Positions 1 through 34,049 of a DNA stretch of 35,575 nt are shown here, piece by piece. Source of the DNA: Deltaproteobacteria bacterium (lineage in GTDB: Bacteria > Desulfobacterota > Desulfobulbia > Desulfobulbales > VMSU01). A model generated the notes under the pieces. It searched no databases. It was not told where the DNA came from and saw only the letters and a list, made by a program, of their open reading frames with translations. The stretch is from positions 1 through 35,575 of the forward strand of contig JAADIV010000022.1 of the NCBI GenBank assembly GCA_013151175.1. The letters are read 5' to 3'. Position numbers and translations under genes: made by a program. Position 1 is the stretch's first letter. Each line of letters begins with the position of its first letter.

Positions 1-61
1 TATGCTTCGAAGTCTTAGGTAAGCTAAGACTCCGATAGGCATCACGCTGAATAGTTACGAA
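1..61. repeat. Copy 1 (left-truncated by window edge) of a composite repeat: TATGCTTCGAAGTC ... GCATCACGCTGAATAGTTACGAA
   Basis: TATGCTTCGAAGTC (1-14) is identical to 28581-28594. CTGAATAGTTACGAA (47-61) is the exact reverse complement of 28522-28536. Internal hairpin GTCTTAG-gtaag-CTAAGAC. Confidence 0.75.
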
Positions 62-7960: not shown

Positions 7961-8140
7961 ATTTTTTTTGTGTTTTTTGGCCAAAATTTGATTATAAAAG
8001 CCATCTGAATGATGCACGCTTGCCTATTTTTATCCTGTCGCAGCATACGGGTAAGTATAGCAGTATCCAAGGAAATATCCAGTTTATCCTGGCCGGCTGT
8101 TGCAGTATAGTCCACTGTGGTTATATCTAGTTTACCAGGA

Positions 8141-8160
8141 ATTACGCTGAATGGTTACGA
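8141..8160. repeat. Partial copy of the composite repeat end (ATTACGCTGAATGGTTACGA)
   Basis: 18/20 identical to ATCACGCTGAATAGTTACGA at 41-60; ends 4 nt before the ddl start. Confidence 0.5.
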
Positions 8161-28500: not shown

Positions 28501-28521
28501 GTCTTTCCTTATCTTTTTATA

Positions 28522-28680
28522 TTCGTAACTATTCAGCAGCACCCCATCTTCGTCCATTTGGGCCTTCTCGAATACCAAAGTATGCTTCGAAGTCCCAAAT
28601 GAACAAACCTGGAGCACTGCTGAACAGTTACATTTCGGTGGTTATTGCATATTTCTATGCATCACACTGAATAGTTACTT
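28522..28680. repeat. Composite palindromic repeat: imperfect inverted repeat (arms about 28522-28573 and 28577-28632) plus a trailing GCATCACACTGAATAGTTAC unit
   Basis: GTAACTATTCAGCAG...CCATTTGGGCCTTC pairs with TATGCTTCGAAGTCCCAAATGAAC...CTGCTGAACAGTTAC; shares two exact blocks with 1-61. Confidence 0.8.
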
Positions 28681-28815
28681 ATATTCTTTTGACAAAACAG
28701 ATAGTTACAACATATCCTACCCATAACTGCCTGAAAACACAACGGATTATTTTTTGTAAAAAAACTTGCCAGACAGTTTTTTTGGACATATCCTTAATCT
28801 ATGGGGGGTAAGTCT

Positions 28816-29914: not shown

Positions 29915-29941
29915 CAGCGGTACGACAACGATCGTATGCGA
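29915..29941 (+). repeat. 27-bp repeat, copy A (CAGCGGTACGACAACGATCGTATGCGA)
   Basis: Identical to 33611-33637 and to the reverse complement of 33759-33785. Confidence 0.95.
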
Positions 29942-29952
29942 AGGAACATAAT

Positions 29953-31221
29953 TTGATAGTCAAGGCATTAAAAGGATTCAAGGACATCCTACCAGATGAG
30001 GCCAATCTTTGGCAAGATGTAGAACGGGTGGCCCGGCAAATTTTCCATCGTTTCGGCTATCGAGAGATCAGGGTGCCGATTTTGGAGAAGACAGGGCTTT
30101 TCGCCCGCTCCATCGGCGAAACCACGGATATTGTCGAAAAGGAGATGTATAGCTTTACCGATCGTAACGGCGATTCATTGACCATGCGGCCGGAAGGCAC
30201 TGCCCCGGTATTGCGCGCCTTTATTGAGCATAATCTCCAGGCCGAGCGACCGGTGCAAAAGCTCTATACCATGGGGCCTATGTTCCGCCACGAACGGCCG
30301 CAAAAGGGGAGGCTGCGGCAATTCCATCAGATGAGCGTTGAGGCCATAGGTGCCGATCAGCCGGAAATAGACGCCGAAATCATGGCTATGGCCTCCATGG
30401 TTATTAGCGAATTGGGCCTGGACGTAAGTCTGGAGATAAATTCCCTGGGCTGCCCAAAATGCCGGCCCGCTTTTAACCAGGCTCTGCTTGACTTTCTGGC
30501 AGAAAACGCCGGCAGTTTATGCCCTGATTGTGAACGGCGGCGTTATAAAAACCCTCTGCGGGTACTTGATTGTAAGAACAAGACCTGCCAGGCGCGTTAT
30601 GTCAACGCCCCCTCTATTCAGGCCCATCTCTGCCCGGAATGCGCGGCACATTTTCAGGCAGTGGAGTCTTATCTAAAGGCCCTTGATATAAGGTACAAGG
30701 TTAATCCCTTCATGGTGCGGGGGCTTGATTATTATACCCGCACTACATTTGAGTTATTGACCAATGCCCTTGGTGCTCAGAGCGCGGTTGGGGCGGGTGG
30801 CCGCTATGACGGTCTAATTGAGCAGCTAGGCGGCCCCGCTCTGCCGGGAATAGGTTTTGCCATGGGTCTGGAACGCCTGACCCTGTTATTAGCGGCACAA
30901 CAAAGAAAATCGTCCCAACGGATAGATATATTTATTGCCGCTCTGGGGGGTGCCGCCCTTGAAAGGGGGGTTCTGTTGGCACACGCCCTGCGGCAGCGGG
31001 GAGTGGCGGTAGTGATGGATTACGCCGGCCGCAGCCTGAAGAGCCAGATGAAACAGGCCGCCCGCCATGACAGCCGTTTTACCCTGATAATTGGGGAAAA
31101 TGAACTGGCTGGGGGACAGGCGGTTATGCGCGATATGGAGAGTCATGAGCAGGTGGACGTTATCCTGTCGGAAGATCTTGCTACCTGGAGTACAGCCTTG
31201 GCAAAGAAAATTTTGGCGTAA
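29953..31221 (+). CDS. hisS: Histidyl-tRNA synthetase
   Basis: VKALKGFKDILPDEANLWQDVE; GTAPVLRAFIEHNL; FRHERPQKGRLRQFHQ; GLDYYTRTTFE. TTG start at 29953 with AAGGAA SD; the track ORF runs upstream through the repeat. Confidence 0.95.
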   Translation: MIVKALKGFKDILPDEANLWQDVERVARQIFHRFGYREIRVPILEKTGLFARSIGETTDIVEKEMYSFTDRNGDSLTMRPEGTAPVLRAFIEHNLQAERPVQKLYTMGPMFRHERPQKGRLRQFHQMSVEAIGADQPEIDAEIMAMASMVISELGLDVSLEINSLGCPKCRPAFNQALLDFLAENAGSLCPDCERRRYKNPLRVLDCKNKTCQARYVNAPSIQAHLCPECAAHFQAVESYLKALDIRYKVNPFMVRGLDYYTRTTFELLTNALGAQSAVGAGGRYDGLIEQLGGPALPGIGFAMGLERLTLLLAAQQRKSSQRIDIFIAALGGAALERGVLLAHALRQRGVAVVMDYAGRSLKSQMKQAARHDSRFTLIIGENELAGGQAVMRDMESHEQVDVILSEDLATWSTALAKKILA

Positions 31222-31263
31222 GATTTTTTGGCAGTTAAAATTAATTATTGAAGGAGAAACCCA

Positions 31264-33051
31264 ATGGAATCCATGGGTGGGCTGAAAAGAAGCCATTATT
31301 GTAACGAATTACAGCAGGCGAATGTTGGTGATGAAATCATCTTAATGGGTTGGGTATTACGCCGCCGCGATCATGGCGGGGTAATTTTTGTCGATCTGCG
31401 CGATCTGCGGGGGATTACGCAGGTGGTGTTTAATCCCGAGTACAATGAAAAAGTGCATGCCAAGGCCCATGATTTACGGAGTGAGTGGGTATTAGCAGTC
31501 CGAGGGAAGGTTTGCGCCCGCCCGGAGGGAATGACCAACAAAAATCTACAGACCGGCGCCATCGAAATAATGGTTGATGAATTGCGGATTCTCAACACCT
31601 CCCCGACACCGCCATTCCCGCTAGATGAAGAAAAAGATGTGGCGGAAAATCTGCGCCTTAAATATCGCTATCTTGATTTGCGCCGCCCAAAAATGATTAA
31701 TAATCTGCGTCTACGTCATCAGGCTGCGCACGCCATTCGCACCTATCTGGACGAAAATAATTTTATCGATGTGGAAACTCCAATTTTGACCCGCTCAACC
31801 CCTGAGGGCGCCAGAGATTATCTAGTCTCCAGCCGGGTCAATCCCGGCAAGTTTTATGCTTTGCCACAGTCGCCGCAGCTCTTTAAACAGTTGTTGATGA
31901 TTGCCGGGGTGGATCGTTATTATCAAATCGTCAAATGCTTTCGTGATGAGGATCTGCGGGCCGACCGCCAACCGGAATTTACCCAGATCGACATGGAGTT
32001 ATCCTTCGTTGATGAAGACGACATCATGACCATTGCCGAGGGTATGATTCAACGACTCTTCAAGATTACTCTAAATAAAGACATTAGCACTCCTTTTAAA
32101 CGTATGACCTACGCCGAAGCCATGGAGCGTTTCGGCTGTGATAAACCGGACACCCGTTTCGGTCTGGAATTAATTAACCTAACGGAGACAGTGCGTGACT
32201 GTGGCTTTAAAGTTTTTGCCTCGGTAGTAAAGAAGGGCGGTCTGGTGAAAAGTATTAACGCCAAGGGCTGTGCCACCTTGTCCCGCAAAAATATTGATGA
32301 CCTCACCGAGTATGTGGCGCAGTTTGGCGCCAGGGGGTTGGCCTGGGTCAAAATAAAGGAAGACGGCGAATGGCAGTCGCCTATTGCCAAATTTTTTACG
32401 GAAGCAGAGCGTAACGATATGGGGCAAACCCTGGACGCCGCTCCCGGAGATTTGTTGTTTTTTGTGGCGGATACGCCGGCTGTTGTCCATCAGGCCTTGT
32501 CGGAGCTGCGTCTGGAGCTGGGCCGGCGGCTTAACCTAATTGACAAGAGCGTCTTTGATCTATTGTGGGTAACGGATTTCCCCCTGCTGGAATATGATGA
32601 GGATGAGGGGCGCTATACGGCGGTGCATCATCCCTTTACCGCCCCTCATGAGGATGATCTGGCTCTGCTAGAATCGGCGCCGGGCAAAGTGCGCAGCCGG
32701 GCCTATGATATGGTTTTAAACGGTACGGAAATCGGCGGCGGCAGCATTCGTATTCATCAAAAGGATGTGCAGAACCGGGCCTTTGCCGCCTTGGGTATTT
32801 CGCCGGAGGAGGCGAAGGATAAGTTCGATTTCCTCTTGCGGGCTCTGGAGTTGGGGGCGCCGCCCCATGGTGGTATCGCCTTTGGTCTGGATCGTTTAAT
32901 GATGATATTAACTGCCAGCGATTCGATTAGGGACGTTATCGCCTTCCCCAAAACGCAGCGCGCCGCCTGCCCGCTCACCGAGGCGCCGTCACCAGTGGCC
33001 AGAAAGCAGTTGACTGAGCTGCATTTACGGCCTGACTGGAAAGAGGATTAA
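31264..33051 (+). CDS. aspS: Aspartyl-tRNA synthetase
   Basis: MGWVLRRRDHGGVIFVDLRDLRGITQVVF; YQIVKCFRDEDLRADRQPEFTQIDMELSF; GGIAFGLDRLMMIL. Confidence 0.98.
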   Translation: MESMGGLKRSHYCNELQQANVGDEIILMGWVLRRRDHGGVIFVDLRDLRGITQVVFNPEYNEKVHAKAHDLRSEWVLAVRGKVCARPEGMTNKNLQTGAIEIMVDELRILNTSPTPPFPLDEEKDVAENLRLKYRYLDLRRPKMINNLRLRHQAAHAIRTYLDENNFIDVETPILTRSTPEGARDYLVSSRVNPGKFYALPQSPQLFKQLLMIAGVDRYYQIVKCFRDEDLRADRQPEFTQIDMELSFVDEDDIMTIAEGMIQRLFKITLNKDISTPFKRMTYAEAMERFGCDKPDTRFGLELINLTETVRDCGFKVFASVVKKGGLVKSINAKGCATLSRKNIDDLTEYVAQFGARGLAWVKIKEDGEWQSPIAKFFTEAERNDMGQTLDAAPGDLLFFVADTPAVVHQALSELRLELGRRLNLIDKSVFDLLWVTDFPLLEYDEDEGRYTAVHHPFTAPHEDDLALLESAPGKVRSRAYDMVLNGTEIGGGSIRIHQKDVQNRAFAALGISPEEAKDKFDFLLRALELGAPPHGGIAFGLDRLMMILTASDSIRDVIAFPKTQRAACPLTEAPSPVARKQLTELHLRPDWKED

Positions 33052-33068
33052 GGGCTGACAAAAAAACT

Positions 33069-33096
33069 TTGACAATGCGGCGCTGTGTGTTATAGA
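33069..33096 (+). promoter_or_regulatory. Candidate sigma70 promoter for the cold-shock gene
   Basis: TTGACA - 16 nt - TATAGA, leaving a roughly 120-nt leader before ATG 33223. Confidence 0.6.
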
Positions 33097-33222
33097 ATGA
33101 GTGCTTTAGCGGTATTGTCGGGCGAATTATCCTGGCAATACAACGATTGGTTGTCAAACGGCGCCGGTCATATTATTAAATAGGCCTTTCTAGGGGGTCT
33201 GGTAAAGAAGGAGTAGTTCGAG

Positions 33223-33423
33223 ATGGCTGAAGGAACAGTAAAGTGGTTTAACGCGTCTAAGGGGTTTGGGTTTATCGAGCAAGACGATGGCTCAGATGTT
33301 TTTGTACATTATTCTGCAATTAAGACGGAAGGCTATAAGAGCCTTGATGAAGGTGCCCGTGTTAAGTTTGATGTTGTCGAAGGCAACAAAGGGCCCGCTG
33401 CTGATAATGTTGAGCCCCTGTAA
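33223..33423 (+). CDS. Cold-shock domain protein (CspA family)
   Basis: [41 protein letters not shown]. Confidence 0.97.
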
Positions 33424-33610
33424 AAATAAATCAGGCGGTACTTGCAGATGACCTTTGGTAATCTGTGGCAATAAGTTTATGTTACCCCCTATAAGGGTGT
33501 TCAGTAAAATGGCAAGCCGGTAAATTCCCGCTCCTGACTGTTTTCGAGCTAACATCCTGAACTTGCAGTTTTTGAGCAGTCAGTGAAATCTGTGAGCTGT
33601 GCTCCGCACT

Positions 33611-33637
33611 CAGCGGTACGACAACGATCGTATGCGA
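33611..33637 (+). repeat. 27-bp repeat, copy B
   Basis: CAGCGGTACGACAACGATCGTATGCGA, identical to copy A. Confidence 0.95.
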
Positions 33638-33674
33638 TTGCGGGGCATTTTTTTTGCCCTTGGCTTACCTGAGA

Positions 33675-33714
33675 CATAACGGAGCCGCGCTCAAAAGCCG
33701 GGAACTCTGTTATG
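33675..33714 (+). repeat. Stem-loop nested between copies B and C
   Basis: CATAACGGAG (33675-33684) pairs with CTCTGTTATG (33705-33714), one G-U. Confidence 0.7.
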
Positions 33715-33752
33715 GACATAAGTACCCTTTCCCCATGCAATTCCCCAGGTTT

Positions 33753-34049
33753 TCACTTTCGCATACGATCGTTGTCGTACCGCTGTACTAGCAGTCTCTT
33801 CTGCCCAGGGGACATCTTTTTTAACTGGTATTCCCGCTTGGCGGCGTCAGAGCGCGAGGCGGCGGCCTCCTGATATACAAGCTGAACCGGCCGCCTTGCC
33901 CTGGTGTATCTAGCGCCCTTCGCACCATAATTATGTTCTTTGAGCCTTCTGACGAGGTCGATGGTGATGCCGGCGTAGAGGCTGTCATCATTACAGCGCA
34001 GCATATAAACGTACCAGCCACTTGGTTTAATGTTCATGTTGCTCCTCAA
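33753..34049 (-). CDS. GIY-YIG nuclease superfamily protein (small, UPF0213-like)
   Basis: WYVYMLRCNDDSLYAGITIDLVRRLKEHNYGAKGARYTRARRPVQLVYQE; the C-terminal QRYDNDRMR lies within the 27-bp repeat. Confidence 0.88.
   Translation of the reverse strand: MRSNMNIKPSGWYVYMLRCNDDSLYAGITIDLVRRLKEHNYGAKGARYTRARRPVQLVYQEAAASRSDAAKREYQLKKMSPGQKRLLVQRYDNDRMRK
33759..33785 (-). repeat. 27-bp repeat, copy C (inverted)
   Basis: TCGCATACGATCGTTGTCGTACCGCTG is the exact reverse complement of copies A and B. Confidence 0.95.

Follow-up and report, generated by a model that had tools for sequence, protein, structure and literature searches.

Small dispersed repeat (SDR) elements of Nostoc punctiforme, 21–27 nt long, are said to be dispersed and hairpin-like, to lie inside minitransposons, to form several families per genome and to carry evidence of recent movement, and their spread through an RNA copy was reportedly proposed (a description attributed to Elhai et al. 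2008, Genome Res 18:1484). In the open library searched, four papers cite the cyanobacterial description, and how 24 bp of DNA can be copied and exactly inserted is a general question. Rickettsia palindromic elements (RPEs) are about 100–150 bp long. REP/REPIN sequences are short palindromic repeats of 20–40 nt whose movement is attributed to Y1 transposases acting in trans (PMC3733652, PMC3116915, PMC8266576); REPs carry a GTAG or CGTC motif at one end of the palindrome (PMC3733652, in which RPEs are also mentioned), and CT is the cleavage site of TnpAREP enzymes (PMC8266576). Here we describe a repeat in a deltaproteobacterial genome that, by analogy, is best filed with the SDR-type very small mobile repeats, an element kind already known, of which the deltaproteobacterial repeats would form a new and separate set.

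The preliminary description of the window, by which we mean the whole 35,575-nt stretch of DNA analysed, reported a perfect 27-bp repeat in three copies. Zero-mismatch copies were recovered at all three places, 29915–29941 (+), 33611–33637 (+) and 33759–33785 (−), where dinucleotide shuffles lead one to expect none, and a fourth copy was absent from the window at up to three mismatches. The repeat is real, but the putatively mobile unit within it is 24 bp long, GCGGTACGAC(A/T)ACGATCGTATGCG, and occupies 29917–29940, 33613–33636 and 33760–33783; the CA and A that flank it to complete the 27-mer derive from the target or from chance, the base preceding AGCGG being C, T, G or A genome-wide. When the copies of the genome were aligned with their flanks, the bases ahead of AGCGG showed no likeness, and the downstream side showed only a short preference. 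The 2.2-Mb genome holds 28 copies of the 27-mer and 37 copies of the 24-mer core, each at up to three mismatches, and a reversed control pattern gave none. At the same threshold, the three congeneric sister species contain 1, 20 and 23 copies of the 24-mer, the genome with the single copy being 95% complete, and six other genomes of the same family contain none. This search of the genome and its relatives, which had been suggested as a check, thus revealed a dispersed family. The copies are mostly single, with inverted pairs or doublets not the rule genome-wide, and about a third of those in the genome lie inside open reading frames (ORFs); copies 2 and 3 of the window are inverted relative to each other, with 123 bases between the 24-bp units.

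Public records matching the repeat were metagenome-assembled genomes (MAGs) of deltaproteobacteria. Neither variant of the element (A or T), nor the sibling 24-mer family described below, had an exact copy among viral contigs; plasmids gave no match to the sibling family, and phages yielded only a partial 21-nt match (E=0.6). An Rfam search returned nothing at the repeat. One genome from another family of the order carries a lone near-perfect 24-mer with one mismatch and no further copies; this copy looks real, and horizontal arrival is possible. A match with three mismatches in a distant genome was taken as chance.

The three contexts had been named correctly as the hisS leader, the region after a cold-shock gene and the 3′ end of a GIY-YIG gene. 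Copy 1 (29917..29940, +; an exact 24-mer with flanks ATGCA|AAGGAA) lies directly 5′ of the hisS Shine-Dalgarno sequence AAGGA (29941–29945), and hisS itself (29953..31221, +) starts with a TTG at 29953 in a start region that we aligned with three sister species. In these species the element is absent upstream of hisS, where the leader is too diverged for base-by-base alignment. Copy 2 (33613..33636, +; flanks ACTCA|ATTGCG) does follow the cold-shock protein ORF (33223..33423, +), as described, but is not merely intergenic, since it occupies the hairpin loop of the intrinsic terminator of that gene. Removal of the 24 bp leaves TGCTCCGCA-CTCAAT-TGCGGGGCA, a stem whose loop has six bases, with a run of T after it. 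The predicted folding energy is −16.5 kcal/mol without the element and −26.2 kcal/mol with the insert, which extends the stem, and the sister species have a terminator at this locus without the element. At the cold-shock gene, a cspA thermoregulator model gave a weak match below its gathering score. Copy 3 (33760..33783, −; an exact 24-mer) falls in frame among the final codons of an ORF (33753..34049, −) whose residues 12–79 match the GIY-YIG domain (PF01541, E=6.4e-17). The eight codons that it contributes, RYDNDRMR, precede the terminal K, so that the ORF ends in LLVQRYDNDRMRK; from the sequence, the same ORF minus 24 bp would read LLVQK with the TGA stop unchanged.

Filled and empty versions of the same site were found in two different host repeats. 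MITE-A (GTAAGCGCTC...GAGCGCTTAC, with terminal inverted repeats) hosts many element copies in two sister species, and some of the sister-species copies lie inside a second host repeat, MITE-B (...GTAGATCGGACTTTTTACGACGCCATC). The empty form of MITE-A, AATGTA|AGCGTTTC, occurs in 16 copies and that of MITE-B, CTGCCGA|AACGCC, in many, each alongside the filled form. In both hosts the difference between filled and empty is exactly 24 bp with an alignment slack of 0 at the junction, which indicates that no target-site duplication is made. A classical MITE, with terminal inverted repeats and a target-site duplication, differs from the 24-mer in this respect. After insertion into MITE-A or MITE-B, the element is carried along by its host.

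Comparable differences were found in genes. In the LptF/LptG permease gene (PF03739), the element sits in the middle of the ORF, and two sister species have an exact 24-nt gap; the TruB, NeuB and FtsQ genes likewise contain the element in this genome and lack it in sister species. In a DbpA-type helicase the element lies in the linker ahead of the RNA-binding domain, and relatives lack it there. At a further locus, the element lies between the 3′ end of one gene and the Shine-Dalgarno sequence of the next; without it, the sequence leading up to the start codon is as long as in two relatives, in which the AA|AAGG target is intact. In addition, a type IV prepilin-like gene appears to carry one copy in frame within its short leader (MKHIIKKQ-RHDNNRMR-RNARGFTLIEIMVAM). 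The unit amounts to eight codons with no stop across the six frames, which accounts for the survival of copies inside genes. In-frame insertion into protein genes without destroying them is shared with RPEs, which are much longer than 24 bp.

The insertion sites share a target. The motif A|ANNG, often as A|AAGG or A|AATG, was present at 23 of 34 sites in the genome, compared with 1.8% in the background (P about 3e-32, a probability that is overstated if the left A counts as an element base), whereas the G at the fourth target position, seen at 29 of the 34, is independent of that choice. Because the Shine-Dalgarno core AAGG(A) matches this target, copies come to lie before ribosome sites, that of hisS among them, and copies ahead of genes reflect a target match, not regulation. 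Identical short motifs ahead of genes may thus be insertions at Shine-Dalgarno sites and call for caution before they are read as operators.

We conclude that the repeat is very probably a 24-bp noncoding mobile element that inserts precisely at A|ANNG without target-site duplication. As judged from comparison of sequences, this reading draws on the exact length of 24 bp, the lack of duplication, the target preference, the filled and empty sites, and the insertions in genes, in a terminator loop and in two unrelated MITEs; the timing of movement is estimated from comparison between species. The part of the preliminary description that called the repeat recently mobile was borne out by many dispersed, near-identical copies, by their absence at orthologous sites of the sister species and by the exact empty sites. 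At 24 bp, the element would rank among the smallest DNA units for which spread is known. Likened by description to the Nostoc SDRs, it shares with them the small size and dispersal (24 bp in 37 copies), filled and empty sites, copies inside larger mobile repeats (here MITE-A and MITE-B) and the coexistence of several tiny families. It is set apart from them, also by description, by its sequence and phylum, by the A|ANNG target and by the lack of a detected reverse transcriptase, and an exact insertion with zero duplication is demonstrated here in two host repeats.

The dyad symmetry of the repeat and the position of several copies just upstream of start codons or Shine-Dalgarno sites could also suggest an operator or RNA regulatory element of a regulon that includes hisS, the cold-shock gene and others, kept by selection. 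This is very improbable. Copies lie inside the LptF/G, FtsQ, TruB, NeuB, DbpA helicase and GIY-YIG ORFs, in a terminator loop and in MITEs, the element is absent at all orthologous sister-species loci examined, one sister has a single copy, and the Shine-Dalgarno association follows from the A|AAGG target. On the gene-internal copies and the empty orthologous sites we rejected a regulon; the strictly conserved binding site offered in the preliminary description fails on the same comparison, as the loci differ in relatives, copies lie inside ORFs and one sister is nearly devoid of them. That the genomes are draft MAGs might point to assembly or adaptor artefacts, or to a local duplication without wider meaning, but the probability of this is negligible: the copies bear independent substitutions and unrelated flanks across four MAGs, genes read through them in frame, and MITEs containing the element have multiplied.

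Two explanations of how the element spreads were weighed against these data. A genuine REP/REPIN origin, with a RAYT as mobiliser, would agree with the size of 24 nt, the imperfect palindrome and the Y1_Tnp (PF01797) genes of all four genus genomes (ten matches), and in every tiny family the bottom strand terminates at a C|T junction, reminiscent of the CT cleaved by TnpAREP (PMC8266576). Such an origin seems unlikely to us, however, since the foot of the palindrome lacks the GTAG or CGTC tag (PMC3733652), the copies have no genome-wide doublet organisation, and no copy accompanies a RAYT gene. The 24-mer resembles REP/REPINs in size and palindromy, whereas its ends are GCGG... and ...TGCG without such a tag, and it is mostly single rather than in inverted doublets, often intragenic and without linkage to a RAYT gene. 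This genome has two Y1 matches, of which one is broken and the other belongs to another subtype, and no element copy was found near any of the ten Y1_Tnp loci (about 1.5 kb per side where the contig allows, with 8 mismatches allowed). We rejected membership in the REP/RAYT system on the missing tag and missing linkage. The earlier term REP-like holds for the short imperfect palindrome but not for the tag, for inverted doublets, for a location outside genes (about a third of copies are intragenic) or for an adjoining Y1/RAYT gene, and the suggested link to a RAYT/TnpA-REP gene did not hold up, as none of the Y1 genes of the four genomes adjoins a copy. Spread through an RNA copy that is reverse transcribed into target sites, as proposed for the Nostoc SDRs, would fit the small size, a possible RNA hairpin (−6.8 kcal/mol) and the SDR analogy; we regard it as rather improbable. 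The RVT_1 domain (PF00078) was not found in any of the four genomes of the genus by a search to which control genomes responded, and the hairpin was not clearly better than those of shuffled sequences, its folding energy being unexceptional. Within the family, one compensatory pair was seen among 40 variants, which is not above shuffles.

For the 24-bp mobile element, we infer movement as one folded strand, whose cutting and joining would be the work of an enzyme provided in trans. Our best guess for this mover, a tentative one that is likelier to be wrong than right, is a single-strand HUH (Y1/RAYT-like) transposase. We favour it because there is no target duplication and because the bottom-strand C|T junction recalls the CT cleavage of TnpAREP (PMC8266576). 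The sister species with one element copy has two intact Y1 genes, which counts against this guess, as does the lack of linkage, with no copy within 1.5 kb of the Y1 genes found. With its defined filled and empty sites, its target motif, several sibling families and a short list of enzymes to consider, the genus makes the question of copying and insertion testable.

Other tiny repeats accompany the element. A sibling 24-mer, GGTAAGCGAG(C/T)CTGCGAGACTCCG, is present in 20 copies in this genome. Of 58 genomes sampled from the order, 28 contain it, one of them in as many as 245 copies. Across the order it lies inside several unrelated host repeats (at least two) and sometimes in direct tandem. A 17-mer, GCTAAGCG(A/T)AGACTGCG, occurs at two exact positions of MITE-B in one sister species; one of these positions holds the 24-bp sibling in other MITE-B copies, and the junctions of the 17-mer and of a variant of the sibling 24-mer in MITE-B are equally exact. 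By our own reading, made without a formal test, all tiny families are mostly preceded by A, and their first bases are GC or GG and their last GCG or CCG, so that the last pairs can close a stem. It is conceivable, though doubtful, that these 17–24-bp units, with their common flanking A, G(C/G)...(G/C)CG ends and exact insertion without duplication, represent one widespread kind of ultra-small mobile DNA, whose mover would be an enzyme so far connected with no such element, in genomes without a detected reverse transcriptase.

The window itself contains two further repeats. At 18–34 (+) there is a 17-bp unit, GGTAAGCTAAGACTCCG, with an A on either side, which looks like a shortened sibling element. 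Another dispersed repeat, containing GTAACTATTCAG, is found at 36–58, 8136–8158 and 28519–28684, and it also adjoins copies of the 24-bp element at four other loci.
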